Positions 21,150 to 46,687 of a DNA stretch of 64,000 nucleotides are shown one piece after another. How positions within the stretch are numbered: position 1 is the stretch's first letter; each line of letters starts with the position of its first letter. The position numbers were made by a program, and so were the translations under genes. Origin of the DNA: Streptomyces sp. TG1A-8 (GTDB taxonomy: Bacteria; Actinomycetota; Actinomycetes; Streptomycetales; Streptomycetaceae); NCBI RefSeq assembly GCF_030499535.1, contig NZ_JASTLB010000001.1, forward strand, positions 6,076,001 through 6,140,000, written 5' to 3'. The notes under the pieces were generated by a model. The model was not told the DNA's origin and searched no databases. It was given only the letters and a program-made list of their open reading frames with translations.

Positions 21150-22709
21150 GTGGATTTCCGCTTACTGGGGCCCCTGCAGGCGAGCGTGGACGGCGCGACC
21201 GTACCGCTCGGCGGGGTGATCAAACGCAGACTGGTCGCCTATCTGCTCCTGAACGCCAACCGAGTCGTGGCCACGCGCAAGCTGCTCGACGTCCTGTGGC
21301 CGGACGAGACCCCGCGCACCGCACGCAAGATGCTCGGCAACGCCGTCCGTGACCTGCGCCGCGACCTGGCGCACGGGAACCCGGAGACCCGGGCGTCCCT
21401 GCTGACCCGTGCCCCCGGGTACCAACTGCGCATCGAGCCCGACACCGTGGACCTGTTCCGGTTCCGCCGGGCCGTGGAGCGCGGGCGCGCCGAGGCGGAC
21501 GCCGGTGCCCACACCGCGGCCGCGCGCATGCTGCGCGAGGCGCTCGGCCTGTGGCGCGGAGCCGCGCTCGCCGACCTCGCGGAGGCCCGGCTGGGCTGGC
21601 CGGAGCTGGAGCGCCTGGAGAGCGAGCGGCTCAGCGCCCTCGAAGACCTCTTCGAGGCCGAACTGACGGCCGGCAACCACCACGCGCTCCTGGGCGAGTT
21701 GCAGACGGCCGTCGCCGCGGACCCGGTGCGCGAACGGCTGAGCGGTCAGCTGATGCTGGCGCTGTACCGGTGCGGCCGGCAGACCGACGCCCTCGCGGTG
21801 TTCCGGCGCATCCGGACCGAACTCGTGGAGCAGTACGGCCTGGAGCCGTCGCGCGAGCTGCGACGACTGGAACGTGCCATCCTCGATCACGCCCCCGACC
21901 TGGACCCGCCGGTGCGGCCGCTGGCGGAGCAGCACCGCGACCAGGGGCGGGTGCGGTCCCTGCTGGCCGCCCAGCAGCAGGCGGCCCGCCGGGTGGAGGC
22001 ATCCGCCGCACCCGGCCCGTCCCCGGTGCGCGCGGCCCCGCGGCCGGCCCCCGACTGCGGGTGCGAGCGGCAGGTGGTGCCCGCCCTCGCCGAGGCCGGC
22101 GGCCGGTCACGGGCAGGGCGCCGGGCGGCTCCGCGGCGCAGACGGGTCAGCGTCGTCCTGGTCTGGGCGCGCCACGACCTGCCCGGCGACCGCGATCTGG
22201 ACGACGTCCAGGACGCCATGCTGGACGTCGCGGCGGTCGTGCAGCAGGAGTGCACGCGCATGGGCGGCACGACCGGCCGGATGACGGCACCGGTGTTCTC
22301 CGCGCTGTTCGGTGTCGACGGCACCCGGCGGGACGACGCCGCGCGTGCGGTGCGCGCGGCCTTCGCCATCCGGGACCGGCTCGGCGGCCGCGCCGGGAAC
22401 GCCACGTTGGGTGTCCGCCTGCACGTCGCCGTGGCCACCGGGGAGGCGTGCCTGTCGTTCCTGCCGGGGCAGGAGGACGTCCCGGCGGTGACGGGGGAGG
22501 TGTCCGACCGGTGCTTCCGCCTGCTGACGATGGCCCCCGAGGGACAGGTGCGGGTGTGCGAGGCCACCCGTCAGGCGACCGAGTCGGAGGTGTCCTACCA
22601 CCTCGGCCCCGAACCCCCCGACGGCTGGAAGGCGGTCCGCATCCGGCCCGCGGTGGCCGGCGGTCCCTCGGTGCACCGGCACGAAATACCCTCGTCGGCA
22701 GCCATCTGA
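21150..22709 (+). CDS. SARP regulator fused to a cyclase-like domain
   Basis: 519 residues. OmpR-like winged helix about 1-95 (FRLLGPLQASVDG, then KRRLVAYLLLNANRVV), bacterial transcriptional activation domain about 100-245, disordered linker, then a class III nucleotide cyclase-like domain about 330-500 (RRVSVVLVWARHDL, then ARAVRAAFAIRDRL and VRLHVAVATGEACLS). I do not see a canonical paired metal-binding Asp set, so the cyclase part is probably a sensor. The fifth codon is TTA (21162-21164), which would make translation depend on the bldA tRNA. The GTG start has GAGG 6 nt upstream. Probable pathway activator for the NRPS and/or the 24-37 kb genes. Confidence 0.92.
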   Translation: MDFRLLGPLQASVDGATVPLGGVIKRRLVAYLLLNANRVVATRKLLDVLWPDETPRTARKMLGNAVRDLRRDLAHGNPETRASLLTRAPGYQLRIEPDTVDLFRFRRAVERGRAEADAGAHTAAARMLREALGLWRGAALADLAEARLGWPELERLESERLSALEDLFEAELTAGNHHALLGELQTAVAADPVRERLSGQLMLALYRCGRQTDALAVFRRIRTELVEQYGLEPSRELRRLERAILDHAPDLDPPVRPLAEQHRDQGRVRSLLAAQQQAARRVEASAAPGPSPVRAAPRPAPDCGCERQVVPALAEAGGRSRAGRRAAPRRRRVSVVLVWARHDLPGDRDLDDVQDAMLDVAAVVQQECTRMGGTTGRMTAPVFSALFGVDGTRRDDAARAVRAAFAIRDRLGGRAGNATLGVRLHVAVATGEACLSFLPGQEDVPAVTGEVSDRCFRLLTMAPEGQVRVCEATRQATESEVSYHLGPEPPDGWKAVRIRPAVAGGPSVHRHEIPSSAAI

Positions 22710-23585: not shown

Positions 23586-24818
23586 GTGAACCACGTGCTG
23601 AGTCGAATACTCCCCGCCGCGGGACCGGGCCGCGTCCTCGCCGTCGCCACCTTGCTGATGACGGTGGGTCAGGGCGCGTTCATGACGTGCTCGGCCCTGT
23701 ACTTCACCACCGTCGCGGGGCTGTCGGTCCCCCAGTGGGAACTGGGCCTGACCATCGCCGCGGCGGTCGGCCTGTTCGCCGGCATCCCCCTCGGACACCT
23801 GGCGGACCGCAGGGGGCCGCGCGGTACGACAGCCGTCCTGGTCGCCCTCAACGGCCTCGCGGCCGCCGCGTACCTCCTGGTGGGCTCCTTCGCCCAGTTC
23901 GTGCTGGTCGCCTGTGTCTTCGTCGTCATGGAACGCGGAAGCCGCTCGGCCCTGCAGGCGGCGGTCGCCGGCGCGCTGAAGGCCTACGACCTCGTGTCCA
24001 CGCGGGCCTACCTCCGGTCCGTCACGAACGTGGGGGTGGCCCTCGGCGCCGCGCTCGCCGGTGTGGCCCTGAACCTGGGCTCCGCCACGGCCCTGCGCAC
24101 CGTCCTGGTGATGGACGCCCTGGCCTTCCTGGCCTCGGCGGCGACGCTGACCGCGCTGCCGCCCCTGCCGGCGGCCTCGCCGGCGAAGGGCGAGCACCAG
24201 CTGGCGGTGCTGCGGGACCGGCCCTTCGCCCTGGTGACCGCCCTCAGCGCGGTGCTGTCCCTGCCCGCGCTGCTCCTGGAGATGGTGATCCCCCTGTGGA
24301 TCGCCCACCACACGAGCGCCCCGCGCTGGATGGTGACCGTCCTGTTCCTGGTCAACTCGGCAGGCGTGATCGCCTTCCAGGTGCGCATCGCCAAGGGCGT
24401 TGCGGACCTGTCCCGCGCGGTGCGCGCGGCGAGGCTGGCCGGCGGGGTGCAGGCCGCGGCCTGCCTCCTCTTCGCCGCCTCCTCCACCCACGCCGCGCTG
24501 GTCTCGGTGACGTTCCTCGTCCTGGCCGCGGGAGTCCAGGTCTACGGGGAGATGGTCTTCGCGGCGGCGGCGTGGACCATCGGATTCGACCTCGCCCCGC
24601 CCCACCGGCAGGGCCAGTACCAGGGTTTCTTCTTCACCGGCTACGCCCTGGCCGTCATGGCCGCACCCACCTGTCTGACCGGCACGGTCGTCGGGGGCGG
24701 CACCCTCGGCTGGCTGGTGCCGGCGGTCCTCTTCGCCGCAGCCGGCCTCGCCCTCGGCCCGGCGGTCGGCTGGGCCGAACGCAACCGGCCCGCGGTCCTC
24801 GTGGCCTCCGGCGGCTGA
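23586..24818 (+). CDS. MFS transporter
   Basis: About 410 residues with roughly twelve hydrophobic helices and the HLADRRGPRG loop after helix two. It opens the plus-strand gene run and ends 25 bp before the dioxygenase gene, so it is probably the dedicated exporter of that pathway. No clear ribosome site precedes the GTG at 23586. A TAGCGT hexamer at 23582 would, as a -10 box, give a leaderless message at the in-frame GTG 23595. Substrate not predictable. Confidence 0.88.
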   Translation: MNHVLSRILPAAGPGRVLAVATLLMTVGQGAFMTCSALYFTTVAGLSVPQWELGLTIAAAVGLFAGIPLGHLADRRGPRGTTAVLVALNGLAAAAYLLVGSFAQFVLVACVFVVMERGSRSALQAAVAGALKAYDLVSTRAYLRSVTNVGVALGAALAGVALNLGSATALRTVLVMDALAFLASAATLTALPPLPAASPAKGEHQLAVLRDRPFALVTALSAVLSLPALLLEMVIPLWIAHHTSAPRWMVTVLFLVNSAGVIAFQVRIAKGVADLSRAVRAARLAGGVQAAACLLFAASSTHAALVSVTFLVLAAGVQVYGEMVFAAAAWTIGFDLAPPHRQGQYQGFFFTGYALAVMAAPTCLTGTVVGGGTLGWLVPAVLFAAAGLALGPAVGWAERNRPAVLVASGG

Positions 24819-24843
24819 CTCGTCCCGAGCAAAGGAGCCAGGC

Positions 24844-25797
24844 ATGGAACAACACGCCCCCGCAATCGCCGAAACGGGAGGTCCCACCGGAACCGAGGAC
24901 GCGCCGCCCCTGCGCACGGCCTCCCGCACGGCGGGGCACGACGCCGTCCACGGAAGCTTCCGGGCATCGCCGTCCGACCCGCACGTCGCCCCGCGCGAGA
25001 TGCTGCTGGGCAACGCGACGCACCCGCGCGGTCCGGCCGTACGGACCCTGGAGGGCCGGCCGGCCGACGCCGACCACCTGCACCGGGAGGTCACCGAACA
25101 GCTGTGGAGCCGCGGCATGGCCGTCGTCCAGCTCGACCAGCCGCTGCCGCACCACCGCTTCACCGCCCTCGGCGAGTTCCTGGGCACGGCGATACCGGAG
25201 ACGGACCCCGCGGTGCAGCCCTACGTGCAGGAGGGGATCGTCCTCAACCTGCGCAGCGAGCACGCGCCCACGGCGAACGTGTCGCTGCAGCCCTTCGCGC
25301 GCAACTCGCTCAGCCTGCACTCCGAGAGCAGCGGTGCCGCCGTGGCGAAGCAGCCCCGGTACATCGTGCTGATGTGCGTCGCACCCGGCGACGACACCGA
25401 CCACGCCCGGACCGTGCTGGTGCCGATGCGGGAGGTGGCGCGCCGGCTCCCGGCCGGCACGCTGGAGCTGCTCTCCCGCACCAGGTACCGCGACAGCCCC
25501 GAGGCGCCGCCCATCGCGCGCCGCGTCGACGGCCACTGGGTGTTCTCCTTCCGGGACTTCCTCGACCAGGAACTGCGGTGGACGCACGACCGGCCGGGCA
25601 CCGACCCGGAGACGGTCAACGCGGCGCTGCGCGAACTGCTGGCCGCCATGTACGCGCCCGGAGAAGCGGTCGGGGTGCGCTGGCGCAGCGGACTGCTCGT
25701 CGTGATCGACAACACGTACCACTTCCACGGCCGGACCGCCGGTGCCGCGGCACCGCCGCGGCAGCAACGGCACCTGCAGCGCCTGCGCATCCGCTAG
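24844..25797 (+). CDS. Fe(II)/2-oxoglutarate dioxygenase, clavaminate synthase-like
   Basis: 317-residue non-haem iron dioxygenase of the TauD/clavaminate synthase superfamily. Metal ligands read as H159-x-E161 (SLHSES) and H295, with R297 (DNTYHFHGRT) as the 2OG-binding Arg; the HxE rather than HxD form matches the CAS/AsnO/VioC-type amino acid hydroxylases. The N-terminal 50 residues look disordered. AAAGGAG lies 6 nt upstream of ATG. Since the NRPS A domains look Asn-specific, an Asn beta-hydroxylase role (AsnO-like) is attractive but unproven; it could act on another amino acid made here. Confidence 0.88.
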   Translation: MEQHAPAIAETGGPTGTEDAPPLRTASRTAGHDAVHGSFRASPSDPHVAPREMLLGNATHPRGPAVRTLEGRPADADHLHREVTEQLWSRGMAVVQLDQPLPHHRFTALGEFLGTAIPETDPAVQPYVQEGIVLNLRSEHAPTANVSLQPFARNSLSLHSESSGAAVAKQPRYIVLMCVAPGDDTDHARTVLVPMREVARRLPAGTLELLSRTRYRDSPEAPPIARRVDGHWVFSFRDFLDQELRWTHDRPGTDPETVNAALRELLAAMYAPGEAVGVRWRSGLLVVIDNTYHFHGRTAGAAAPPRQQRHLQRLRIR

Positions 25798-25846
25798 CGC
25801 CGGACCGAGTCCGGGCCCACCCCCCACCCCCCTACGCGAGAAGCCG

Positions 25847-27418
25847 ATGACACTCTTCGACTCCGTCCTGGCCCCGCGCCCTCCGCACGCGTCGCCGGAC
25901 GCCCTTGCGGCGGCGGGGCGCGCACCGCGCCCCGCCGGGACGTCCGACACCTTCGTCACCCGGGTCGACGAGCGGGTGCTCGACGTCTTCGCCCGGGCCC
26001 GCCGCCCCGACGACCCGCTCGAACTGCGCGACCTGTGGCTGGGCCGCGTGGAGCACGAACTGGGCGCCGACGCGCGGCATCCGGCGCTCGCCGAGCAGTG
26101 GCGGGGCAGCCGCCGCCTGCGCCCGGTGGAACCGGAGCAGGTGCTGAACTCCCGGGCCACCGTCCGCTTCGTCAAGGAACTGTTCAACTGGTTCTTCCGC
26201 GACGACCTGTACGGCGACCTCAGGGACAACGCGCGCTACATCCTCTCCGGCGGAGCGGTGGACGAGGAGCGCTGGGGGCTGCCGCAGAGCCTGAAGGACT
26301 GCATCCGCTACGCCCTGGACCGCGACTGGTACGGCTACTCCGACTCACGCGGGCGCTACCCGGCGCGCGAGGCGATCGCCGCCTACGAGAGCGCCCGGCT
26401 CGACGGCGTGCGCTACGGGGCGGAGCACGTCGCCATGACCATGGGCGGCACCTTCGCCGTGAGCACCCTCGCGGACTTCGTGCTGCACGGCCGCTCCCCG
26501 TCTGCCTCACCGGCGCTGTGCGCGGTGCCCAACTACCCGCCCCTGGTCGAAACGGTGGCCCGCCGGCACGGCGTCCAGCTGGTCCCGCTGGCCAGCGAGC
26601 ACGGACGGACCTCGATCGAGCCGCTCATCGCGGCCCTCACCCCCGACACCCCCCTGGTGCTGCTGCAGACCGTGGGCAACCCCACCGGCGCGGCCGTCAC
26701 GGAGGAGGGCCTCGCCCGGCTCGTCCGGGCCGCCTCCCCCTCCACGGTCATCGTGCTGGACGAGTGCCACGAGTGGCTGGGCGACTACGAGCAGCGCACC
26801 GCCGCGCGCGGCGCGCCCAACGTCGTGCGCGTCTCCAGCCTCTCCAAGACCTGGTTGGCCCCGGGGCTGAAGGCGGGCTGGTTCCTCGCCGACCCCGGCT
26901 TCATCGCCGACTACTACGAGTACGCCTCCTCGTCCTTCGGCGGGCCGCCCTCGTTCTTCTACACGGTGGTGGAAGTGCTGGCCCGCATGGAGCGCTGGCT
27001 GATCACCGGTGTGGACGAGCCCGGGCCCAACGAGCTGAAGGAGTTCGAGGCGTCGTACGGACTCGACCTGGAGCGGCTGCGGCACGCCTACCGCACCTAC
27101 CGGACGGACCGGCTGCGACGGGCCGAGGAACTCACCACGCTGCGCGACGCGGCGACCGTCCGCCTGGCGGAGACCCCCGCGCGGGTGCTCGTGCCGCGCT
27201 TCTCCATCAACACCACCGTGGAGCTGCCCGGCTGGGACGACTCCTACCGGTGCTTCCGCGACGTCCTGCGGGAGACGGGGGTGTCCCTCTTCCCCGGCAT
27301 CCTCACCTTCTGCTTCTCCGGCGCCGTCATGCGGATCACCACCGCCCGTCCCTGGGACCAGCTCGCCCCCGCCCTGGACCGGCTGGGATCCCACCTCGCG
27401 ACCACGACCGCCCGGTGA
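25847..27418 (+). CDS. PLP-dependent aminotransferase, class I/II
   Basis: 523 residues, fold type I PLP enzyme. PLP lysine K334 in VSSLSKTWLAPGLKAG, the cofactor-binding DECHEW segment and NPTG(A) are visible, together with GGTFAVS where the phosphate-binding loop lies. It is longer than the usual 400 because of about 110 extra N-terminal residues without clear domain. It lies 49 bp after the dioxygenase. It probably forms or removes an amino group on a pathway intermediate; the substrate is not readable. Confidence 0.88.
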   Translation: MTLFDSVLAPRPPHASPDALAAAGRAPRPAGTSDTFVTRVDERVLDVFARARRPDDPLELRDLWLGRVEHELGADARHPALAEQWRGSRRLRPVEPEQVLNSRATVRFVKELFNWFFRDDLYGDLRDNARYILSGGAVDEERWGLPQSLKDCIRYALDRDWYGYSDSRGRYPAREAIAAYESARLDGVRYGAEHVAMTMGGTFAVSTLADFVLHGRSPSASPALCAVPNYPPLVETVARRHGVQLVPLASEHGRTSIEPLIAALTPDTPLVLLQTVGNPTGAAVTEEGLARLVRAASPSTVIVLDECHEWLGDYEQRTAARGAPNVVRVSSLSKTWLAPGLKAGWFLADPGFIADYYEYASSSFGGPPSFFYTVVEVLARMERWLITGVDEPGPNELKEFEASYGLDLERLRHAYRTYRTDRLRRAEELTTLRDAATVRLAETPARVLVPRFSINTTVELPGWDDSYRCFRDVLRETGVSLFPGILTFCFSGAVMRITTARPWDQLAPALDRLGSHLATTTAR

Positions 27419-27443
27419 CGGCCCCCCACGGAGGACGAGACAC

Positions 27444-28250
27444 ATGAGCACCTGGACCCCACCCGGCGGCGGACACAAGCTGATCCTCGGCATGGTGCAC
27501 CTGGCGCCCCTGCCCGGCACCCCCTTCCACCGGCCCGGCACCTTCTCCGACATCCTCGACACGGCGGTGGCGTCCGCGCGGGCCCTGTACGAGGGCGGGG
27601 CGGACGGCTGCCTCATCCAGACGGTCGACCGCGTCTACAGCGTCGCCGACGAGTCCGACCCGGCGCGCACCGCCGCCATGGGCCTGATCGTGCGCGCGGT
27701 CGTCGAGGCGACCGGTGCGCCCTTCCGCGTCGGCGTCCAGATGATGCGCAACGCCACCAGGGCCTCCCTCGGCGTCGCCCGGGTGGCCGGCGGCGACTAC
27801 GTCCGGGCCGGCGCCCTGGTGGGACAGACCCTGACCGCCCACGGCATGGTGCGGCCCGATCCGCTGGAGGTGATGGGCTACCGCCGCTCGATCGACGCGG
27901 AGGCCGTCGGCATCGTGGCGGACATCGACTCCATGCACTTCAAGTGGTTCGGGGGGGAGAAGACCACCGCGGAGGTGGCACGCGCGGCCCGCACCGTCGG
28001 CGCGGACGCGGTGTCGCTGTCGCACCCGGACGAACGCACCGTCCTGGAGATGATCGCCTCCGTCCGCGACGCCGTCCCCGGCCTGCCCGTCATCCTGGCC
28101 GGGCACACCGACCACGGCAACGCCGCCCGGCTGCTGGCCGCCGCCGACGGCGCCTTCGTGGGCACGTGCCTGGAGAGCGGCGGCTGGGGCGGCAGGATCG
28201 ACGTCGACCGCGTGCGCCGCTACGTCGACCTCGTCCGGGAGGCCGGCTGA
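27444..28250 (+). CDS. BtpA/SgcQ-family TIM-barrel protein
   Basis: 268 residues matching the BtpA/SgcQ family: LILGMVHLAPLPGTP at the N-terminus, EGGADGCLIQT, the GVQMMRNAT strand, HFKWFGGEK in the middle, and LAGHTDHGNAARLLAAADGAFVGT at the C-terminus. Family members are named for a photosystem I factor and for an E. coli sugar-operon protein, but the reaction is largely unknown; a phosphosugar or nucleoside role is often assumed. Here it is translationally coupled (TGATG) to a SIS sugar-phosphate-type protein, which supports a phosphosugar step. Confidence 0.85.
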   Translation: MSTWTPPGGGHKLILGMVHLAPLPGTPFHRPGTFSDILDTAVASARALYEGGADGCLIQTVDRVYSVADESDPARTAAMGLIVRAVVEATGAPFRVGVQMMRNATRASLGVARVAGGDYVRAGALVGQTLTAHGMVRPDPLEVMGYRRSIDAEAVGIVADIDSMHFKWFGGEKTTAEVARAARTVGADAVSLSHPDERTVLEMIASVRDAVPGLPVILAGHTDHGNAARLLAAADGAFVGTCLESGGWGGRIDVDRVRRYVDLVREAG

Positions 28251-29404
28251 TGGCGCCCGCCACCACCGGCCCGGCCCCCGTCCCGGCCGGAGCACCGGTC
28301 ATCGCCCCCGAGGTGATGCTCCGTCAGGCACACCGTCTCGCCGACGACCTGCGGACCCGCACGGACGACTTCGACGAGCAGGTGCGGGCACTGCCGGACG
28401 CCGTGCGCCTGGCCGCCACCGAGTCGGTGGTCATCGTCGGCGACGGGGACAGCGACCACGCCGCCCGGGCCGTCGAGATGGCGTTCCGGTCCCTCGCGGG
28501 CGTCGACTGCCGCCCGGTGAGCGCGCTGCCCCACACCCACTACGGGGTGCCGTCCGCCGTCCCCGGCCGCGTCCTCACCCTCGCCGTCTCCGCCTCCGGC
28601 CGCACCCCGCTCGTCGTACGGGCGGCCGAGCAGGCGCGGGCGGACGGCGGGACGGCCGTCGCCCTCACCGGGGACGCGGCGAGCCCGCTGGCCCGGTCCG
28701 CCGACGCCACCGTCCAGCTCGAACTGCCCGACCGCGAACCGTCCCCGGGCGTACGCACCTACCAGGCCAGCCTGCTCGGCGCCCTGCTGCTGGCGATCCG
28801 GCTCGGGCAGGCGCGCGGGCGCCTCGGACGCGGGGACGCCGACGCCCTGCGCGACGAACTCCCCGGCCTCGCCGGCGCGGTGGAGGCCACCGTGGACGAG
28901 ATGACCGGGCGGACCCGGCAACTCGCCGACCGCATCGCCGACGCGCCGGTGCTGACCGTGCTCGGCAGCGGACCGTCCCACGGCACCGCCCTGTACGGCG
29001 CGGCGAAGGTGATCGAGACCTCCGCGGTCTTCGCCACCGGCCAGGACCTCGAGGAGTGGTGCCACGTCGAACGGTTCGCCCGGCCCACCGACCTGCCGAC
29101 CTTCGTCGTGGCACCGCCCGGCCGGTCCGCCCGGCACGCCCGCCACGTCGCGCAGCGCGCCACCGCGCTGGGCCGACGGCTCGTCGCCGTCGCCCCCGCG
29201 GACGACCTCCCGGACTTCGCGGCCTGGGCGCACCTGCCCGTCCACGGGCAGGTGCGCGAGGAGTTCTCCCCGCTGCTCTACCACCTGTTCGCCGCCCCCC
29301 TGGCCTGCCACCTCGCCCAGCGCCTGGACCGGACGCCGTTCGCCGCCGGCCGGCCGGAACCGGCGGCCGGAGGGCAGGACAGGGCGCACGGCGCAAGCCC
29401 CTGA
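28250..29404 (+). CDS. SIS-domain protein, GlmS/AgaS-like
   Basis: 384 residues with two tandem SIS (sugar isomerase) domains. The first contains SVVIVGDGDSDHAARAVE and AVSASGRTPLVV. The second contains VLTVLGSGPSHGTALYGAAKVIETS and DLEEWCHVERF, the latter resembling the conserved loop of the GlmS/AgaS/FrlB phosphosugar isomerases and deglycases. There is no glutaminase domain. Its ATG overlaps the stop of the BtpA-like gene by one base. Likely converts a keto- or amino-sugar phosphate; specificity unknown. Confidence 0.87.
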   Translation: MAPATTGPAPVPAGAPVIAPEVMLRQAHRLADDLRTRTDDFDEQVRALPDAVRLAATESVVIVGDGDSDHAARAVEMAFRSLAGVDCRPVSALPHTHYGVPSAVPGRVLTLAVSASGRTPLVVRAAEQARADGGTAVALTGDAASPLARSADATVQLELPDREPSPGVRTYQASLLGALLLAIRLGQARGRLGRGDADALRDELPGLAGAVEATVDEMTGRTRQLADRIADAPVLTVLGSGPSHGTALYGAAKVIETSAVFATGQDLEEWCHVERFARPTDLPTFVVAPPGRSARHARHVAQRATALGRRLVAVAPADDLPDFAAWAHLPVHGQVREEFSPLLYHLFAAPLACHLAQRLDRTPFAAGRPEPAAGGQDRAHGASP

Positions 29405-29504
29405 CCGCCCCGGGACACCCCCTCCAGCCGCCGGGCCGCGCCCCGCGCGGCACCGGCCCGCCCCGTCGGCGCACACCGACGACCGACACGATCGAAGGAA
29501 TGCC

Positions 29505-30215
29505 TTGACCGAGACAATGAACGGCCTGCCCACCGAACAGGTCATCGACGTCCTGACCGAGGAACTGCACAACCTCGCCCCGGCCGAACGGGAGGCCAAG
29601 GCGGTGCAGCTGCTGTCGGTCCTGGGCCGGTCCAAGGCCGCCGCGGCCTCCGCGGCCCGGCCCCCCGCCGAGCCCGGCGACACCCGCAGGGCCCCCCTGC
29701 TCATCTGCGACTGGGCCACCGACCTCGGCCTGGACGGCACCACCCAGCAGCTCGGCATCGACGTCGCCCCCGGCCCCACCCGGGTGTCGAAGACCGCCGA
29801 CGCCACCGGCCACTCCCTGCTCTCCAGCGGCCACGTCGGCGCCGACATCCTGCACGTGCCCGCCGGCAGCGGCTTCGCCCCGCACACCCACCCCGGCGAC
29901 CACCTGCTGTTCGTCCTGGCCGGCACCGGCACCATCGCCGTCGCCGGCGAGATCGTGGAAACCCGCCCCGGACAGGTCTACATGGTGGAAGGCGCCATCA
30001 CCCACGCGGTGGGCGCGGTGACCGACCACATGATCCTCTCCGTGGGCGCACCCCACCGCCACCTGGACAGCCCCGAACGCCAGGAACTCACCGCCTACAC
30101 CGCCCTGCTGGGCGACCTGGGCCACATCACCTGCCGCCTCTGCGACATCCAGGCCTCCAGCGGCGAGGAACTGGCCGCCAAGGGCTGCCCCCACTCCCCG
30201 CACCGGTTCGGGTGA
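29505..30215 (+). CDS. Cupin-domain protein with Cys-containing C-terminus
   Basis: 236 residues. The single cupin barrel covers about 105-185, with metal ligand candidates H127 and H129 (APHTHPGDH), H133 and H167. The first 60 residues look like a helical segment (EQVIDVLTEELHNLAPAERE) and a linker. The C-terminus adds CRLCDIQASS and a final KGCPH with three cysteines. The start is TTG at 29505, with GAAGGA 5 nt upstream. Could be an isomerase, dioxygenase or anti-sigma-like sensor of the ChrR type; the context favours an enzyme. Confidence 0.85.
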   Translation: MTETMNGLPTEQVIDVLTEELHNLAPAEREAKAVQLLSVLGRSKAAAASAARPPAEPGDTRRAPLLICDWATDLGLDGTTQQLGIDVAPGPTRVSKTADATGHSLLSSGHVGADILHVPAGSGFAPHTHPGDHLLFVLAGTGTIAVAGEIVETRPGQVYMVEGAITHAVGAVTDHMILSVGAPHRHLDSPERQELTAYTALLGDLGHITCRLCDIQASSGEELAAKGCPHSPHRFG

Positions 30216-30221
30216 ACCACG

Positions 30222-31862
30222 ATGGCGCCGTCCCCCACCGATTTCGACCGCGCGCACACCTACCTCGGCAAGCCGCTCGCGGAGCGGCTGACGCCCTGGC
30301 CGACGGTGCTGTCCCGCCTCGACCACCACGCCCGGGTCCGGCCCGGCGCGCCGTTCCTGACCACCCCGACGCCCACGGGCGACACCGTGACGCTGTCCTA
30401 CGGGGAGGCCGACGCGCTGAGCCGGCGACTGGCGGCATGGCTGCGCCGTGACCGGGCCGTCCGGCCCGGGTCGACCGTGGCCCTCGCCCCGGTCAACGAC
30501 GCCGCCTCGGTACTGACCGTCCTGGCGGTGCTGCGCGCCGGCTGCTCACTGCTGATGCTCAGCCCGCAGGACCCCGCCGCCCGCCGCCGGGAGCTGACCG
30601 GGGCCGCCGGCGCCGAACTGGTGCTGCGGCCCGCCACGCTCGCGGCGCAGGCACTGCCGGAAGCGGTGGCCGTGCCCGACGCGCACACCCTGGACGCGCA
30701 GGCGGAGCTGCCGTCCGACCCGGCGGCCGACCCGTCGGCCGGCGCCTTCTGCTTCGCCACCTCCGGCTCGACCGCGGCGGGCAAACTGGTCGTCCAGTCC
30801 CACTACGCGGCGGCGGTCAACGCCGAGGCGCTGCGCCGCCACCACGGTCTGCGCCCGGGGGACCGGGTGCTGGGGTGCCTGCCCATCCAGCACGTCAACG
30901 GGCTGCACTTCACCGTGCTCGGCGTCCTGGCCGCCGGCGCCCACGTCCTGCTGGCGCCCGGATTCGACCCGCTGCGCTACCCGGGGCTCCTGGAACGCTT
31001 CCGGCCCCGCATCGCCAGCGTCGTCCCGAGCATCCTCGAAGCCCTCACGGAGACCTGGCGGCAGCCCGAACTGCCGTCCGACTTCCACTACTTCGTGTCC
31101 GCCGCGGCACCGCTGAGCGCGCGTACCGCGCGCGCGGTCGGGCAGCGCACGGGCGCCCGCGTCCTACAGGGGTACGGCCTCACGGAGACGGTGAACTTCT
31201 CCACCACCCTGCCCGCCGACCTGTCCGAGGACGCCTACCGCAGGCTGATGCTGGACACCGACATCCCCACCATCGGCACGGCCCTGTACGGCAACGAGGT
31301 CGCGGTGCTCACCTCCGGCGGCGAACGGGCGGCACCGGGGGAGGAGGGGGAGATCTGCATGCGCGGGCACAACGTCATGACCCGCTACCAGGGCAACGAG
31401 CAGGCCACGGCCGAGGCCTTCGCCGGAGGCTGGTTCCACTCCCAGGACCTGGGCACGCAGATCACCGACCCGGAGTCCGGCAGGACGTTCGTCGTCGTCA
31501 CCGGCCGGCGCAAGAACATCGCCAAGGTGGGGGGCGAGGCCGTCTCCCTGGACGAGGTGGACCGCGTGCTGCGGGCGGTGCCGCACCTGCGGGACGCGGC
31601 GAGCGTGGCGCTGCCGCACCGGTTCCTCGGCGAGGAGGTCGTGGCGGCCGTCGTGCCCGCGCCGGGCGCCGACGCGGTGGCGCAGGCGCGCACCGCACTG
31701 GCGCGGTCCTTCCGGCCCACCTGCCGGCCCGGCCGGATCGTCGTCCTGGAGGCCATCCCGCGGACCGCCACGGGAAAGGTGCTGCGCCGCGACCTCGCCG
31801 CCACGATCGCCCGGGTGGCGCCGTCCCCCGAATCCCTTCCGTCTCCCCGGAGCGCCACGTGA
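30222..31862 (+). CDS. AMP-dependent acyl-CoA/acyl-ACP synthetase
   Basis: 546-residue ANL-family adenylating enzyme. P-loop-like motif TSGSTAAGK (A3), YGLTE (A5), HSQDLG (A7 region), GRRKNIAKVGGEAVS (hinge and A8) and the catalytic Lys in PRTATGKVLRR (A10) are all present. It starts 7 bp after the cupin stop. It should activate a carboxylic acid as an acyl-AMP and pass it to CoA or, given the free-standing carrier at 34961, to that ACP. The acid is unknown. Confidence 0.9.
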   Translation: MAPSPTDFDRAHTYLGKPLAERLTPWPTVLSRLDHHARVRPGAPFLTTPTPTGDTVTLSYGEADALSRRLAAWLRRDRAVRPGSTVALAPVNDAASVLTVLAVLRAGCSLLMLSPQDPAARRRELTGAAGAELVLRPATLAAQALPEAVAVPDAHTLDAQAELPSDPAADPSAGAFCFATSGSTAAGKLVVQSHYAAAVNAEALRRHHGLRPGDRVLGCLPIQHVNGLHFTVLGVLAAGAHVLLAPGFDPLRYPGLLERFRPRIASVVPSILEALTETWRQPELPSDFHYFVSAAAPLSARTARAVGQRTGARVLQGYGLTETVNFSTTLPADLSEDAYRRLMLDTDIPTIGTALYGNEVAVLTSGGERAAPGEEGEICMRGHNVMTRYQGNEQATAEAFAGGWFHSQDLGTQITDPESGRTFVVVTGRRKNIAKVGGEAVSLDEVDRVLRAVPHLRDAASVALPHRFLGEEVVAAVVPAPGADAVAQARTALARSFRPTCRPGRIVVLEAIPRTATGKVLRRDLAATIARVAPSPESLPSPRSAT

Positions 31863-31965
31863 ACGGGCCCGACCGGGCCCGGCCCGCCCGACCCGCGCCC
31901 GGGGCGCCGGGCGCGACGACGGCCCGCCCCGTTCCGACCGAGACCACCCAGCCGGAGAGCTGACG

Positions 31966-33330
31966 ATGCCACAGACCCTCCCCGCCCCGTCCCTGACCGA
32001 CCCGCGCACCGGCCGGCCGCGGCCGGCCGTCGCCGTCGGCCGCGAGACCGACGTCCGCGCCACCGTGGCCGCGGCCCGCTCCGCGCAGCCCGCCTGGGCC
32101 GGCCTCACCCCCCGGGACCGCGCACGGCGCCTGCTGCGGTTCGCGGACCTCATCGAGGAACGCTCCGCCGAGTACGTGCAGGCCGAGCAGGCCGGCACCG
32201 GAAAGCCCGCCGCCGAGGCGCACGGCGAGGTCGAGAACTGCGCGGACCTGCTGCGCTTCTACGCCGGCGCCGTGCGCGCCGACACCGCGCCCGCGGCCGG
32301 CCGGCACATGCACGACCGCGAGAGCTGGGTGCGGTGGGAGCCCGTGGGCGTCGTCGCCGCGATCGTGCCCTGGAACTACCCGCTGATGATGGCCGCCTGG
32401 CGCATCGGCCCGGCGCTCGCCGCCGGCAACACGGTCGTGCTCAAACCCGCCCTGACCACCCCGGACACCGCTGTGCTGCTCGCCCGGGACGCCGCCGCCA
32501 CCCTCGGCTCCGACGTGCTGCTGACCGTCACCGGCGACCGCGACACCGGCCGCCTGCTGGTCGCCGGGGACGTCGACGCGGTGGCCTTCACCGGCAGCGA
32601 GGCGGGCGGCCGGGACGTCGCCGCCCGCGCGGGCCTGCGCCGGATCAGCCTCGAACTGGGCGGCAACTGCCCCGCCCTGGTCCTCCCGGACGCCCCCGAG
32701 GACACCTGCGAGGCGCTGGTGCGGGCCGTCACCTACAACGCCGGACAGAGCTGCGCCGCCCCGGCCCGGGTGATCACCCTGCGGGAGAACCACGACCGGG
32801 TGGTCGACGAGCTGGCCAAGGCGATGAGCGCCCGGCGCGCCGGGGCCGACTTCGGGCCGCTCAACAACCCCGACCAGGTCGCGCGCCACGACCGCATCCT
32901 CGCGAGCAGCGCGGCGGGCGTCCAGCACGTCGCCGACGTCGCGCCGGGGCCGGGGCAGGAGGGTGGCTACTGGCGGCCCGGACGCGTCCTGGCCGGCCTG
33001 GCACCCGACGACCCGGCCGTGGTCGAGGAGGTGTTCGGCCCCGTGCTGACGGTGCAGGCGGCGGACGGCGTCGAGGAGGCGCTGGCACTGGCCAACTCCG
33101 TGCGGCAGGCCCTCGCCGCGAGCGTGTGGGGCTCCGACACGGCCACCGTGCTCGGTGTGGCCGGCGCGCTGAACGCCGGGGAGGTCTGGGTCAACTGCCA
33201 CCTGGACCAGAGCGCCGAGCTGCCCCACGGCGGCCGCGGCAGCTCGGGGCACGGCACGGACATGAGCGTGCTCGCGCTCACCGAGTACCAGCGTCCCAAG
33301 ACCGTCACCGTGCGCCTCGGCGAGCGCTGA
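31966..33330 (+). CDS. Aldehyde dehydrogenase
   Basis: 454-residue NAD(P)-dependent ALDH-superfamily enzyme. The oxyanion Asn137 (PWNYPL), general base E230 (SLELGGNCP) and nucleophile C263 (NAGQSCAAP) are in the expected places. It looks closest to betaine/aminobutyraldehyde dehydrogenases. GGAGAG precedes the ATG. Oxidises an aldehyde of the pathway to an acid, possibly feeding the adjacent acyl-AMP ligase. The roughly 100-bp gap before it holds no other gene. Confidence 0.9.
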   Translation: MPQTLPAPSLTDPRTGRPRPAVAVGRETDVRATVAAARSAQPAWAGLTPRDRARRLLRFADLIEERSAEYVQAEQAGTGKPAAEAHGEVENCADLLRFYAGAVRADTAPAAGRHMHDRESWVRWEPVGVVAAIVPWNYPLMMAAWRIGPALAAGNTVVLKPALTTPDTAVLLARDAAATLGSDVLLTVTGDRDTGRLLVAGDVDAVAFTGSEAGGRDVAARAGLRRISLELGGNCPALVLPDAPEDTCEALVRAVTYNAGQSCAAPARVITLRENHDRVVDELAKAMSARRAGADFGPLNNPDQVARHDRILASSAAGVQHVADVAPGPGQEGGYWRPGRVLAGLAPDDPAVVEEVFGPVLTVQAADGVEEALALANSVRQALAASVWGSDTATVLGVAGALNAGEVWVNCHLDQSAELPHGGRGSSGHGTDMSVLALTEYQRPKTVTVRLGER

Positions 33331-33344
33331 GGAGAGGAGACACC

Positions 33345-33905
33345 ATGCACCCACCCGACGCGCCCGGCACCGAACCCTGCGACTGGAGCTGGGAGACGGC
33401 GGCCGACCCCGACGAGGTGCACGCGCTGCTGACCGCGTGCGACGCCCACCAGGCGACGGCCTCCGGCACCCCCGCCCCGCGGCGGCGCCCGGAGACGACG
33501 CGGTGGCTGGTCGAATCCGGTTCCGTGCACCTGCTGCGCCACACCACCGGACCGGCCGGCATGTTCACCCTCACCGCGCGCCCGCCCTCCGGCACGGACG
33601 AGTCCGTCTTCCCGCCCGCCGAACACCCGCTGTACCTGTCCCGACTGGCGGTGGCCCCCGCGTGGCTGGCCGGCGGCGCCCTGGTGGGGCTGCGGTGCGT
33701 GCGCCAGGCCGTGGAGACGGCGGCCGGCCTGGGCGGCGACACCCTGCGCGCGCAGGTCAACCCCGACCTGCGCGACACCTGCTCCCTGCTGGACCTGCTG
33801 GGCTTCACCCCGTGCGGACCGGCGTCCGCCGACGAGACGGGCCGGCGCCACGCCCACCTGCACAGACCGCTGACCGCCCCGGCGGCCGACCGGAGAGGGG
33901 ACTGA
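33345..33905 (+). CDS. GNAT-like acyltransferase (probable)
   Basis: 186 residues. YLSRLAVAPAWLAGGALVGLRCVRQAVE fits strand beta4 and the acyl-CoA-binding helix of GNAT N-acetyltransferases, although the pyrophosphate loop (Q/R-x-x-G-x-G/A) is imperfect. The C-terminal DLLGFTPCG matches the usual end of the fold. ATG follows GGAGAGGAG. It starts 15 bp after the ALDH stop and ends 6 bp before the epimerase, so it belongs to the same operon. It may acylate an amino group or serve in self-resistance. Confidence 0.65.
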   Translation: MHPPDAPGTEPCDWSWETAADPDEVHALLTACDAHQATASGTPAPRRRPETTRWLVESGSVHLLRHTTGPAGMFTLTARPPSGTDESVFPPAEHPLYLSRLAVAPAWLAGGALVGLRCVRQAVETAAGLGGDTLRAQVNPDLRDTCSLLDLLGFTPCGPASADETGRRHAHLHRPLTAPAADRRGD

Positions 33906-33910
33906 CGCGC

Positions 33911-34915
33911 ATGGCGGCGACCATACGACGCGAGAGCGTCGGCACCACGGCCGGCCACGCGGGCCAGGAACCCACCCCGGTGGACGCCTACACCCTCGAC
34001 ACCGGCGACGGCCTCGCCGTCACCGTGTGGACGTACGGAGCCGGCCTCGTCGAGGTGCTGGTGCCCGACCGCCGCGGACACACGGCGAACGTGGTGGTGC
34101 GCCTGCCGGACCTCGCCTCCTACGAGGACCGCGCCCGCAACCCCTACGTCGGCTCGACCGTCGGCCGGTACTGCCGGTGCGTGTCGCACGCCCGCCTGCG
34201 GCTCGACGGCGACGAGTACCTGCTCGACCGCAACGACGGGCGGCACCACGTCCACGGCGGCACCCTCGGCTTCGACCGCTACGTGTGGCGGGCGCACCCC
34301 GAGCTGCACGGGGACCGGGCCGTGCTCCGCCTGCGCCTGGACAGCCCGGACGGCGACCAGGGGTACCCCGGCACCCTGTCCGCCGAAGTCGCCTACGAGG
34401 TGGCGCCCGGCGGCCGGCTCACCCTCGACTACCGGGCCACCACCACGGCGAGCACCGTGGTCGGCCTGACCAACCACGCCTACTGGAACCTGGCCGGGAC
34501 CGGCCGCGTCGACGGTCACACCCTGGCCGTCAACTCCACGCGGACCACCGTCTTCGACGACGAGCTCCTGCCCCTGCCCGGCCCGCCCGCCGACATCACC
34601 GGCACCCGGCTCGACCTCACGCGGCCCAGGTCCCTCGACGGGCAGGCGCTGGACAACTGCTTCGTCCTGGACGATCCGGCGTGGGCCGCCCACCTGCACG
34701 ACCCGGCCTCCGGCCGCACCATGCGCGTGGTCACCGACCAGCCCGCCGTCGGCGTCTACACCGCCGACCACTTCACCGGGCGGCGGCGGTCGGGCATCTG
34801 CCTGGAGACCGGCGCCCTGCCCGACGCCCCCAACCGCGACGACTACCCCCCGGTCCGGCTCGATCCCGGCCAGGTGTACCGCCATCGCACCGTGCACCAC
34901 TTCTCCGCCGGCTGA
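33911..34915 (+). CDS. Aldose 1-epimerase (galactose mutarotase family)
   Basis: 334 residues. Family hallmarks: NPYVGSTVGRYCRCV near the N-terminus, HHVHGGTLGFDRYVW with the catalytic His pair region, LTNHAYWNLAG (second catalytic His) and a C-terminal GICLETGALPDAPN with the Glu base. In the mutarotase family this Glu/His pair interconverts anomers. With the SIS and BtpA-like genes it indicates that a sugar or sugar-like ring is made or processed in the pathway. Confidence 0.9.
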   Translation: MAATIRRESVGTTAGHAGQEPTPVDAYTLDTGDGLAVTVWTYGAGLVEVLVPDRRGHTANVVVRLPDLASYEDRARNPYVGSTVGRYCRCVSHARLRLDGDEYLLDRNDGRHHVHGGTLGFDRYVWRAHPELHGDRAVLRLRLDSPDGDQGYPGTLSAEVAYEVAPGGRLTLDYRATTTASTVVGLTNHAYWNLAGTGRVDGHTLAVNSTRTTVFDDELLPLPGPPADITGTRLDLTRPRSLDGQALDNCFVLDDPAWAAHLHDPASGRTMRVVTDQPAVGVYTADHFTGRRRSGICLETGALPDAPNRDDYPPVRLDPGQVYRHRTVHHFSAG

Positions 34916-34960
34916 CCGGACGGCCCGCCCCAGCGGCATCCCAGCGAAAAGGACACATCC

Positions 34961-35245
34961 ATGGACTCCCTCATGACCTCGGTCGCCCGGGCGGTGCGGC
35001 ACCGCGCCGGATCCGACACCCCGGCGGCGGACCTGGACCCGGACACCGAGCTGTCGGCACTCGGACTGACCTCCCTCGGCGTCGCCGGACTCCTCGTCGA
35101 CCTGGAGGCCGCCTTCGACGTGCGGTTCCCCGCGGACGCCGTCACCCCGGAGGTCTTCCGCACCCTGGCGACCCTCACGGAGACGGTCCGCGCCCTGCGC
35201 GCCGCCTCGGAGGAGCGGCCCGGCACGCCGTCGGCGCAGCGGTGA
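34961..35245 (+). CDS. Free-standing acyl/peptidyl carrier protein
   Basis: 94 residues, typical size for a discrete ACP/PCP. The phosphopantetheine attachment site is Ser38 in LGLTSLGVAG (TSL instead of the more usual DSL). Helix two (GVAGLLVDLEAAFDVRFP) and helix three (TPEVFRTLATLTETV) follow normally. GAAAAGGA lies upstream. Probably loaded by the acyl-AMP ligase at 30222 and acted on by neighbouring oxygenase or aminotransferase; it could also donate to the first C domain of the NRPS. Confidence 0.88.
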   Translation: MDSLMTSVARAVRHRAGSDTPAADLDPDTELSALGLTSLGVAGLLVDLEAAFDVRFPADAVTPEVFRTLATLTETVRALRAASEERPGTPSAQR

Positions 35246-35272
35246 CGGCCGCGGGCGAACGGAGGGGAACCG

Positions 35273-36238
35273 ATGCAGATCCACGCTGACACCGTCCGGG
35301 TCGGCATCCACTCGGGCCAGCAGTACCGCACCTTCGAGGAGGCGCTCGGCCTGTGGCAGCGGGCCGAGCGGCTCGGCTTCGACTGGGTGTCCCTCTTCGA
35401 CCACTTCCGGCCGCCGCTCGGCGGCCCGGCCGGCCCCTGCCTCGACGGGCTGTCCCTGCTCTCCGCCCTGGCGGCGCGCACCACGCGCATCCGCTGCGCC
35501 GTGCTCGTCTCGGCGGTGACGTGGCGCCACCCCGCCCTCGCCGCCGCAGCGGCGGCGACCGTCGACCACGTCTCGGGCGGCCGGCTGGAGTTCGGCATCG
35601 GCGCCGCCGGCCCCGACCTGGCCTACGAGCAGTACGGCATTCCCTTCCCGTCCGCCGGGACCCGGCTGGACATGCTGGACGAGGCCTGCCACGTCCTGCG
35701 CGGCCTGTGGAGCGCCCCGTCGACCAGCTTCGAGGGCAAGCACTTCCGGCTCACCGACGCCCACCTGGAACCCAAGCCGGTCCAGCGGCACCTGCCGCTG
35801 GTGATCGGCGGCGAGGGCGAGCGGCGGATGCTGCGCATCGTCGCCGAACACGCCGACATCTGGAACACCCTCGCCGGCACGCCCGATCACTACCAGCGCA
35901 AACTGACGAGCCTGCGCCGCCACTGCGCCGAGGTGGGACGCGACCCCGACGACATCCGCAAGTCGGTGACCTTCCGGGCGGTCCTCGGCAGCAGCCCGCA
36001 GGAGGCCGAACAGCGCGCCCGGGAACTGCGCCACCGCATCGGCGCCGACTCGCCGGTGTGGTCCGAGTACGTCGTGATCGGCACGCCGGAGCAGTGCGTC
36101 GAACGCCTGCGGCCCTACCTCGACCTCGGCGTCCGCGACTTCCTGCTCGGTGCCCGGCCACCGGTCGACTGGCACACGTGCGAGCTGTTCGCCCGGCACG
36201 TGGCCCCCGCACTGCGGGCCTACGCCCCGGCCGGCTGA
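35273..36238 (+). CDS. LLM-class flavin-dependent monooxygenase
   Basis: 321-residue luciferase-like TIM-barrel oxidoreductase using FMNH2 or F420H2. Typical segments: RAERLGFDWVSLFDHF, RIRCAVLVSAVTWRHPALAAAAAATVDHVSGGRLEFGIGAA, and the C-terminal GTPEQCVERLRPYLDLGVRDFLL. GGAGGGG precedes the ATG. It directly follows the ACP gene, so an ACP-bound substrate is possible, as in the luciferase-like hydroxylases of some NRPS/PKS pathways; F420-dependent reduction is the alternative. Confidence 0.9.
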   Translation: MQIHADTVRVGIHSGQQYRTFEEALGLWQRAERLGFDWVSLFDHFRPPLGGPAGPCLDGLSLLSALAARTTRIRCAVLVSAVTWRHPALAAAAAATVDHVSGGRLEFGIGAAGPDLAYEQYGIPFPSAGTRLDMLDEACHVLRGLWSAPSTSFEGKHFRLTDAHLEPKPVQRHLPLVIGGEGERRMLRIVAEHADIWNTLAGTPDHYQRKLTSLRRHCAEVGRDPDDIRKSVTFRAVLGSSPQEAEQRARELRHRIGADSPVWSEYVVIGTPEQCVERLRPYLDLGVRDFLLGARPPVDWHTCELFARHVAPALRAYAPAG

Positions 36239-36321
36239 CGCCGCCGGTCCCTCCTCCGGCGTCCCCGGGCCGGCGCCCGGCACCCGAGCAGACACTCATT
36301 CCCACACACACGGAAGGCGAC

Positions 36322-37101
36322 ATGGGCAGCTACTACTACGAGGACGGCTTCGCCCGTTTCTTCGACGGCCAGTACACCGGGTGGACCCACACGTTCTCGC
36401 CCCGGCTCGCCGATCACCTGGACCGGCAGCAACTCCCCGCGCGCACGGTCATCGACCTGTGCTGCGGCACGGGAGTGACCGCAGCGATCCTGAGCGCCTC
36501 CGGCTGGCGGGTCACCGGCGTCGACGGTTCCGCCGCCATGCTCGACATCGCGCGCAAGAAGCTCGCCGCCGAACTCGACAGCGGCGCGGTCACCCTGCTG
36601 GAGGGGGACGCCCGCGACTTCCGCGTACCCGAGCGGGCGGCCGCCTGCGTCAGCCTGGACGGCGCCCTCAACCACTTGGAGTCCCCGGCCGAACTGGTCC
36701 GGTGCTTCACCGCGGTGCGCGAAGCCCTCGTCGAGGGCGGCGAGTTCGTCTTCGACCTGTTCACCGCCTCCCACTTCCGCCACTGGAACAACGCCACGCT
36801 GACGGACGATCCCGACGCCGTCGTCGTCAAGCGCGGCGTGTGGGACGACCGGGCGCGCACGGGCATGCTGCGCGTCTCCGGCGTCGTCGGCACGGGCCCC
36901 GCCGCGGTGCGCGTGGACCAGACCCTGCGCAGCTGGGAGTACGACGCGCAGCAGGTGTCCCAGGCACTGACCGAGGCCGGACTGGTACCCGTCGACCACG
37001 ACTTCGAGTCCGCCTACGTCAACTGCGAGTCCGGTTCGTGCTCGCGCACCAGCGTGCCCTGCCGCACCCTGCACCGCGCTCGCAAGCCCGTGGCCGGATG
37101 A
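36322..37101 (+). CDS. Class I SAM-dependent methyltransferase
   Basis: 259 residues. SAM-binding motif I VIDLCCGTGVTAAIL (about 43-57), motif II acidic residue in VTGVDGSAAML, and LEGDARDF as motif III are clear. The C-terminal CESGSCSRTSVPC holds four cysteines, an unusual feature that could bind metal. Last gene of the plus-strand run; after it there are nearly 700 bp without a clear gene. O-, N- or C-methylation cannot be told from sequence. Confidence 0.9.
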   Translation: MGSYYYEDGFARFFDGQYTGWTHTFSPRLADHLDRQQLPARTVIDLCCGTGVTAAILSASGWRVTGVDGSAAMLDIARKKLAAELDSGAVTLLEGDARDFRVPERAAACVSLDGALNHLESPAELVRCFTAVREALVEGGEFVFDLFTASHFRHWNNATLTDDPDAVVVKRGVWDDRARTGMLRVSGVVGTGPAAVRVDQTLRSWEYDAQQVSQALTEAGLVPVDHDFESAYVNCESGSCSRTSVPCRTLHRARKPVAG

Positions 37102-46123: not shown

Positions 46124-46687
46124 TCACCTCCCTTCGTCGGCGGGCGGGCCGGGCAGGACCTCCACCCGGCACGAAACGTGGACGGGGCACAGGTCCCGGA
46201 CGGCCTCCCGGACCCGGGCCCCGTCCACCTCCGGACCCCGGCCCGGCCACACCCGGACCACCACCTCGCCGGACGGCTCGGGCGGCAGGCCGGCGCCCGC
46301 GGTGGAGGACCACACCGCCCCGCCGTCGCCGACGACGTCGGCGTGCACGCCCAGCGTGAGCCAAAGCCGTTCGACCAGGCCGCGCCGGGTGCCGCGCCGG
46401 CGGTGCAGCTCCACCGCGCGCACCACCGCCTCGCGGCGCAGCTCCGCGGGCCACCGCGGGTCGTCGGCGGCGCCCACCCACGACGCCAGCCAGGCGACGA
46501 AGTCGAGCGGAGCCACCCGCGCGTCGAGATAGGCGGGCAGGCTGTCGAGGGTCGCGAACACCGGGGCGAGGACGGTGTCCAGTCCGGCGGTGAACCGCTG
46601 GGCGAAGTCGTCGTCCGCGTAGAGCGCGGGCAGCAGCCCGCCGATCGGGTGCCGGCTCGGCAGACCGGGGACGGTGGCGCGGCTCAT
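46124..46687 (-). CDS. CIS baseplate protein, phage tail protein I-like
   Basis: 187 residues. PIGGLLPALYADDDFAQRFTAGLDTVLAPVFATLDSLPAYLDARVAPLDFVAWLASWVG is the hallmark start of the P2 gpI-like family in contractile systems; RRGTRRGLVERL follows. Its ATG overlaps the stop of the J-like gene (ATGA). In the baseplate it probably sits with the J-like wedge protein. Confidence 0.88.
   Translation of the reverse strand: MSRATVPGLPSRHPIGGLLPALYADDDFAQRFTAGLDTVLAPVFATLDSLPAYLDARVAPLDFVAWLASWVGAADDPRWPAELRREAVVRAVELHRRRGTRRGLVERLWLTLGVHADVVGDGGAVWSSTAGAGLPPEPSGEVVVRVWPGRGPEVDGARVREAVRDLCPVHVSCRVEVLPGPPADEGR

Follow-up and report, generated by a model that had tools for sequence, protein, structure and literature searches.

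Altemicidin, SB-203207 and SB-203208 are made by Streptomyces sp. NCIMB 40513, whose sbz cluster is described as 18 genes in two operons, with sbzD-R leading to altemicidin and sbzA-C turning altemicidin into SB-203207 and SB-203208; the first operon (sbz1, sbzD-R) is sufficient on its own for altemicidin (PMC6331615). The same text has the cupin SbzM and the aldehyde dehydrogenase (ALDH) SbzJ converting cysteine to 2-sulfamoylacetate, the ligase SbzL loading it onto the carriers SbzG and SbzK, which are interchangeable in vitro, and the GNAT enzyme SbzI transferring it, and it names a homologous cluster in S. antioxidans MUSC 164 (PMC6331615). SbzP joins NAD and S-adenosylmethionine (SAM) (PMC11610977; PMC10491745), and a review puts the route from NAD to altemicidin at eight enzymatic steps (PMC10971088). 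Here we analyze a 64,000-nucleotide window of Streptomyces sp. TG1A-8 (C1:6076001-6140000 of a 7.66-Mb genome in four contigs), in which an exporter gene and twelve biosynthetic genes lie on the + strand at 23586-37101 (Table 1). Judged by sequence, this run is very probably an altemicidin-type (sbz1-type) biosynthetic operon.

The first-pass annotation of this DNA could match the gene combination to no known pathway, and stated that this view would be overturned by a characterised cluster holding this gene set; sbz (PMC6331615) is such a cluster, and the combination no longer stands unmatched. Gene order was compared with the S. antioxidans MUSC 164 cluster and not with sbz itself. In that strain, the same genes lie in the same order as in the window at 58-79% identity (locus L007; related loci are given L numbers throughout), and L068, which continues the L007 contig, carries an sbzK-type acyl carrier protein (ACP) gene, an open reading frame (ORF) at the sbzD position (methyltransferase-like, below cut-offs), and then SbzC-, SbzB-, and isoleucyl-tRNA synthetase (IleRS; SbzA)-like genes. 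With D-, C-, B-, and A-type genes after the core, L007/L068 matches the published layout of 18 genes in two operons. The order MFS-TauD-SbzP-BtpA-SIS-cupin-ligase-ALDH-GNAT-epimerase-ACP-luciferase-like oxidoreductase (LLM)-methyltransferase (MT) is common to L006, L007, L008, and L026, which carry an extra sbzK-type ACP relative to the window. The core enzymes of the window number eight (SbzP, TauD, BtpA, SIS, epimerase, LLM, MT, and GNAT), which equals the number of steps in the review.

The organization of the run is as first annotated, with all genes on one strand, an exporter ahead of them, short gaps, and one start/stop overlap, and the first-pass reading of it as a single biosynthetic operon is upheld. 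From exporter to MT, the intergenic gaps are 25, 49, 25, -1, 100, 6, 103, 14, 5, 45, 27, and 83 nt, and the sole overlap, between the BtpA and SIS genes, is genuine. The exporter is part of the run, and its orthologues (65-69% identity) are found at the corresponding position in L005-L008 and L026. Most of the ORFs are backed by codon-position GC; the SIS, GNAT, and MT frames were missed by a simple codon-position GC caller and are called from Pfam matches, orthologues, or both. Probable starts of the genes for the PLP (pyridoxal phosphate) enzyme, SIS, GNAT, epimerase, and MT, as given in Table 1, are internal to the longest ORFs. A terminator scan returned two sites, compared with 2.1 in shuffles, both within the MT gene, and the single promoter-like site is at 37722, within the gene after the operon.

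By its sequence, the PLP enzyme is a predicted SbzP-type annulase: it is 76-80% identical to its counterparts in the collinear relatives L005-L008 (79% to the S. antioxidans copy), aligns with the C-terminal half of PseP (PDB 8k3h; 545 bits), and has a lysine, K334, that is invariant in all 25 aligned loci and that we take, from a family motif, to be the PLP lysine. The dioxygenase aligns with the N-terminal half of PseP (204 bits), and H159, E161, and H295, presumably the Fe ligands by their motif, do not vary among the 21 aligned loci. The SbzM-type cupin and SbzJ-type ALDH are each 79% identical to the S. antioxidans copies; the cupin also matches PDB 9ug7 (145.6 bits), with His 123/125/129/163 invariant in 19/19 aligned loci and the C-terminal residues C206, C209, C224, and H226 invariant in 11/11 (numbering from 29517). 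The ligase, carrier, and GNAT are 71%, 67%, and 58% identical, respectively, to those of L007, the GNAT being assigned by orthology and position. Ser34 of the ACP (numbering from 34973), which is the same in all 19 aligned loci, is presumably the carrier serine, and roles of the cupin histidines are likewise assumed from family motifs. The LLM protein exceeds the TIGR03560 cut-off, a type that we take to be F420-dependent. Apart from the BtpA protein of the run, the genome has no BtpA match at E<=0.001, and no sequence relative of solved structure was found for this protein at E<=0.01. The best Foldseek matches of its AlphaFold2 model (pLDDT 91.2) include ThiE, MJ1099, KDPGal aldolase, RPE, HisA, and TrpA, with TM-scores to such TIM barrels of ~0.5-0.6 (by query length); it is thus a predicted TIM barrel that probably acts on the ribose-phosphate part, a substrate that the fold fits and does not prove. 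The dioxygenase and PLP enzyme were also considered as a capreomycidine/enduracididine-type pair, a candidate rejected on NCBIfam scores far under the cut-offs.

The reactions of SbzP, SbzM, SbzJ, SbzL, SbzG, and SbzI are established for the characterised homologues; for the TauD, BtpA, SIS, epimerase, LLM, and MT proteins, we infer step order and chemistry from the structure of altemicidin, as quoted in PMC9113183. The SbzP-type enzyme would join NAD and SAM in a [3+2] annulation to give a 6-azatetrahydroindane ring, which the TauD dioxygenase would beta-hydroxylate; the BtpA, SIS, and epimerase proteins would remove the ribose-phosphate, the LLM enzyme would reduce the ring iminium, and the MT would methylate the ring nitrogen. 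In parallel, the cupin would convert cysteine to 2-sulfamoylacetaldehyde and, with the ALDH, to 2-sulfamoylacetic acid, which the ligase would load onto the ACP and the GNAT would transfer as sulfamoylacetyl to the ring amine, yielding altemicidin or a close relative for export by the MFS protein. Such a route would account for the pairing of sugar-phosphate-type enzymes with carrier-bound acyl chemistry, which had been remarked on earlier and is borne out: the former would be present because the ring derives from NAD, whose ribose-phosphate must go, and the latter because the acyl unit, sulfamoylacetate, rides on the ACP.

Several observations weigh against assignment of the run to this pathway. 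Among the sbz letters used in Table 1, published functions underlie I, J, L, M, P, and G, and gene order underlies E, F, H, N, O, Q, and R. Pfam confirmed 11 of the twelve families first named, at their coordinates, and the GNAT was the exception; it exceeds no profile cut-off, with Acetyltransf_1 sub-threshold (E 0.25; 12.1 bits, cut-off 20.7), no match to that profile in the three relatives tested, and no NCBIfam match with a query that started 13 codons too late. The GNAT was nonetheless assigned because orthologous ORFs (58-75%) occupy the same slot in collinear relatives and it lies at the sbzI position. The sbzK-type ACP (query from L008), which is present in L004, L006, L007, L008, and L026, was not found in the window, where there is one carrier and not the SbzG and SbzK pair. 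A single carrier does not exclude an altemicidin pathway, because SbzG and SbzK were interchangeable in the assays reported in the sbz paper. Neither the IleRS-like SbzA nor SbzB and SbzC, as would be sought for SB-203208, was found at the cluster in the window.

A kosinostatin-like pyrrolopyrrole pathway (from nicotinate and ribose) was suggested by the related locus L021, which comes from the kosinostatin producer M. okii TP-A0468, and is outweighed by the sbz match. The kst cluster is described as a type II polyketide synthase cluster, for which we established no link to L021, no ketosynthase was found among the 39 window ORFs that were Pfam-scanned (part of the window's ORFs), and sbz supplies a counterpart for every gene of the run; we regard the kosinostatin-like reading as extremely improbable. 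A link to sparsomycin, suggested by the occurrence of a related cluster in S. sparsogenes, was a dead end in the literature search.

Support for an altemicidin-type operon also comes from related loci. A scan of genome contigs with the PLP enzyme alone gave 25 loci (L001, a piece of the window, was left out), each of which was examined in a fetched stretch of up to 10 kb per side using the twelve genes as queries. At least eight of the 12 families are present in 20 of the 25 loci, and all 12 in six (L004, L006, L007, L008, L020, and L026); this tally counts a 27% ligase match in L002 as present (10 families without it) and counts weak, short cupin matches (eight loci) as cupin and not as SbzM-type, the L020 cupin being short and non-SbzM. 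Loci below eight families are the short contigs L005 and L024, and L010, L013, and L023. This co-occurrence exceeds chance, and because the gene set persists though gene order is reshuffled in many of the loci, a shared pathway is better supported than it would be by conserved order. SbzM-type cupins with the C-terminal Cys/His motif are found in 11/25 loci, a short, weak cupin in eight, and none within the stretch in six. The 14 loci whose fetched stretch holds no SbzM-type cupin (including L009, L010, L014, L015, L017, L019, and L025) probably make azaindane alkaloids with other acyl groups.

Aminoacyl-tRNA synthetase-like genes recur among these loci. IleRS-like matches (32-56%) lie in or beside sbz-like clusters in L022 (17105-20515), L066, L067, L068, L069, and L071, with two in Kutzneria L066, and glutamyl-tRNA synthetase (GluRS)-like genes over the TIGR00464 cut-off lie inside the clusters of L073 (8453-10288, - strand) and L064 (2599-4116, - strand). 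The latter possibly play the role of the IleRS-like SbzA in sbz, and could be self-resistance genes or aminoacyl transferases.

The genome has a second SbzP homologue (SbzP2, C1:1422739), 63% identical to the window SbzP, and 34 kb around it were examined (L037/L038). This locus also has SbzB/C/K-type genes; by family, its genes include an AfsR-type regulator, an asparagine synthase, a carrier protein (K-like ACP), a GNAT, an amino-acid-type ligase, and glutamate-mutase-like MutS/MutE proteins; profile scores are just below cut-offs for the SbzC-type GNAT (Acetyltransf_9, 24.5 bits against 25) and the ligase (TIGR01733, 316.6 against 317.4), and both MutS and MutE are below NCBIfam equivalog cut-offs, MutE being over that of Pfam. 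A second cupin is identical to the window cupin over all 232 aligned residues, with 686 bp of identical DNA (window 29502..30187, + strand; C1:1418293-1418978) between diverged flanks, a pattern that suggests gene conversion or recent copying of this one gene. Of 13 core genes, the second locus lacks 11 or keeps them only as traces: a protein-level trace search with 10 core protein families (11 queries) found the MT alone (40% over 85 residues), and at the DNA level there are short matches to the 3' end of the GNAT gene and the 5' end of the epimerase gene and a 183-bp match (76.5%) across the MFS start. The GluRS-like gene that L002 and L003 carry, and that was not detected in L011, is in pieces at the second locus.

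The sequence evidence leaves two readings of this arrangement near even. In one, to which we give not quite an even chance, a single pathway spans both loci, the window providing the altemicidin core and C1:1.418-1.433 Mb adding a further acyl group, probably 3-methylaspartate. It would explain why sbzK, sbzD, and sbzA-C are missing from the window operon and SbzB/C/K-type genes, MutS/MutE, and asparagine synthase are found at the second locus, given that such finishing genes and the mutase adjoin the core in L002/L073, L003/L064, and L011/L065 (and in L015/L066, where the mutase was not found). We also surveyed 392 genomes of the genus (SbzP at E<=1e-100, SbzC-type GNAT at E<=1e-60). SbzP is in 12, with two copies only in the window's genome, and SbzC-type GNAT is in six, all within those 12 (p 2e-10). 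In the other five genomes, the two genes are 11.0, 10.9, 11.0, 15.0, and 27.7 kb apart; in the window's genome, the single SbzC-type GNAT is at the second locus, at distances of 4.5 kb to SbzP2 and 4.67 Mb to the SbzP of the window. Combining 12 of the 25 related loci with the 12 genus genomes, SbzC-type GNAT is in 16/24 entries, or 12/20 distinct genomes by coordinates, four having been entered twice. The second locus retains six of seven tailoring genes and two of 13 core genes (Fisher p 0.004, an optimistic value, as it uses ancestral gene lists that we inferred and genes in one block are not independent). The ligase pocket, read by eye as DLTKMGHIGK with GrsA numbering, agrees at 9/10 positions with the aspartate code DLTKVGHIGK, and because the pocket is near this code and MutS/MutE are adjacent, 3-methylaspartate is the suggested substrate. 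A strict search (E<=1e-200) of 61 family genomes found only this genome's own copy of the ligase, and the literature searched included no paper with both altemicidin and methylaspart-.

The other reading, that the second locus is a mere decaying relic of another sbz-type cluster and that the window alone directs plain altemicidin, seems to us about as plausible, again a shade below even. The fragmentary GluRS-like gene and the traces of core genes speak for a relic; the MT, epimerase, GNAT, and MFS traces count for the split pathway too. Moreover, the published sbz1 operon alone gives altemicidin (PMC6331615), and SbzC-type GNAT was not found (E<=1e-60) in the other six of the 12 SbzP genomes, so that the core also occurs without it. 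Against a two-locus pathway, the carrier, GNAT, ligase, and mutase genes form one block and cannot be counted as separate cases of retention; SbzP2 is nearer to that of Kutzneria L015 (75%) than to those of L002/L011 (61%), which implies mosaic ancestry; MutS and MutE are below the equivalog cut-offs, as noted; the genome-wide search covered only SbzP and BtpA among core genes; and no isoleucyl step is expected because the genome has one IleRS over the cut-off, weaker matches being read as other class I synthetases. Against a relic, six tailoring genes and SbzP2 retain their full length, the branch dN/dS of retained genes is 0.09-0.41, within the range of control branches (0.00-0.76; a crude parsimony count), and 686 bp of the cupin copy match the window exactly. 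In a two-locus pathway, the window would have kept the core, and the other locus the finishing genes and the identical cupin copy. We advance only tentatively, at somewhat less than an even chance, the fuller proposal that one NAD-derived alkaloid pathway runs from two loci 4.7 Mb apart, which complementary gene loss from two related clusters produced, and that its product is a new SB-203208 analogue with 3-methylaspartate replacing beta-methylphenylalanine. Beta-methylphenylalanine in SB-203208 is the parallel to 3-methylaspartate here. If the pathway is indeed split, cluster-finding tools that consider only neighbours would miss the finishing steps. For those related clusters that carry MutS/MutE, the predicted product would be a methylaspartyl sulfonamide.

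Other features flank the operon. The SARP-type regulator upstream is a probable cluster regulator, and SARP genes lie near homologous clusters in several related loci. Nonribosomal peptide synthetase genes occupy 1-12962 (- strand), with Condensation, AMP-binding, and PP-binding domains in 6216-12962; a direct repeat of ~2.9 kb (1-2868 and 3199-6060; 92% identical) is probably a module duplication, judging from its sequence. An integrase-core (rve) transposase ORF (39798-40640, - strand) lies immediately right of an HTH_20/MFS pair neighbouring the operon, and contractile injection system genes (46684-60839, - strand) include two for tail tube gp19, and those for sheath, CIS_tube, baseplate J, Phage_GPD, and an AAA ATPase.

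Table 1. Genes of the probable altemicidin-type run, its probable regulator, and the second SbzP-containing locus
Feature	Position	Strand	Basis
SARP-type (BTAD) regulator, probable cluster regulator (presumed functional link)	21150..22709	+	BTAD 1.1e-43
MFS exporter, sbzR position	23586..24818	+	MFS_1 3.8e-17
TauD-family Fe(II)/2-oxoglutarate dioxygenase, sbzQ position	24844..25797	+	TauD 1.4e-16; 317 aa
SbzP-type PLP enzyme	25847..27418	+	Aminotran_1_2 4e-17; 523 aa
BtpA family protein, sbzO position	27444..28250	+	PF03437 2.3e-41
SIS-domain sugar-phosphate isomerase-like protein, sbzN position	28250..29404	+	SIS 6.6e-16; resembles GlmS isomerase domain
SbzM-type cupin	29505..30215	+	Cupin_2 9.9e-10; start TTG 29505 or ATG 29517
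Acyl-AMP ligase, SbzL-type	30222..31862	+	AMP-binding 3.5e-61; 71% to L007
Aldehyde dehydrogenase, SbzJ-type	31966..33330	+	Aldedh 1.2e-110; 79% to L007
Probable GNAT N-acyltransferase, SbzI-type	33345..33905	+	58% to L007 and 75% to L004 orthologues in the same slot
Aldose 1-epimerase family protein, sbzH position	33911..34915	+	Aldose_epim 7.7e-62
Free acyl carrier protein, SbzG-type	34961..35245	+	PP-binding 8.1e-09; start 34961 or 34973
Luciferase-like oxidoreductase (LLM), sbzF position	35273..36238	+	Bac_luciferase 5e-60; TIGR03560 234.5 bits, cut-off 231.4
SAM methyltransferase (MT), sbzE position	36322..37101	+	Methyltransf_25 6.1e-15; 72-83% in L004, L006-L008, L026
Second SbzP-containing locus (L037/L038)	C1:1418236-1433447		Second SbzP, identical SbzM copy, finishing genes
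Second cupin copy	L037 10309-11007		Identical to window cupin over aligned residues

Among the relatives, S. sparsogenes L004 is the closest with the full set (all 12 families, 74-88% identity to the window); unlike the window, it has an sbzK-type ACP and SbzB/SbzC-type genes directly beside the dioxygenase, and neither it nor L070 has an MFS match. S. rishiriensis L011, S. kronopolitis L002, and S. albospinus L003 share TauD, SbzP, BtpA, SIS, cupin, and ALDH with the window at 75-89%, and in L002 and L003 the LLM is 57-58% and the MT 59% identical; in clusters of this type, the ligase, GNAT, and epimerase are diverged and placed elsewhere, and asparagine synthase, SbzB/C/K-type genes, and MutS/MutE are included. 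PseP (PDB 8k3h, 8k3i) has TauD-like and SbzP-like domains as in the window, fused there in one 815-residue protein; no relevant paper on PseP or 8K3H was among the literature matches listed. With sbz itself, the window shares the same enzyme functions, the gene order between exporter and methyltransferase as judged through the S. antioxidans MUSC 164 cluster, and both the SbzM/SbzJ/SbzL/SbzG/SbzI sulfonamide arm and the SbzP ring arm; unlike sbz, its B, C, and K counterparts are 4.7 Mb away, with glutamate-mutase-like genes and asparagine synthase. An unexplained gene run becomes a probable case of a defined antibiotic pathway in which SbzP performs the annulation and SbzM forms the sulfonamide, in a genome that joins the small SbzP set of the sampled genus. 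The pathway type is known and the window run is another member of it; what could be new is the arrangement over two loci.

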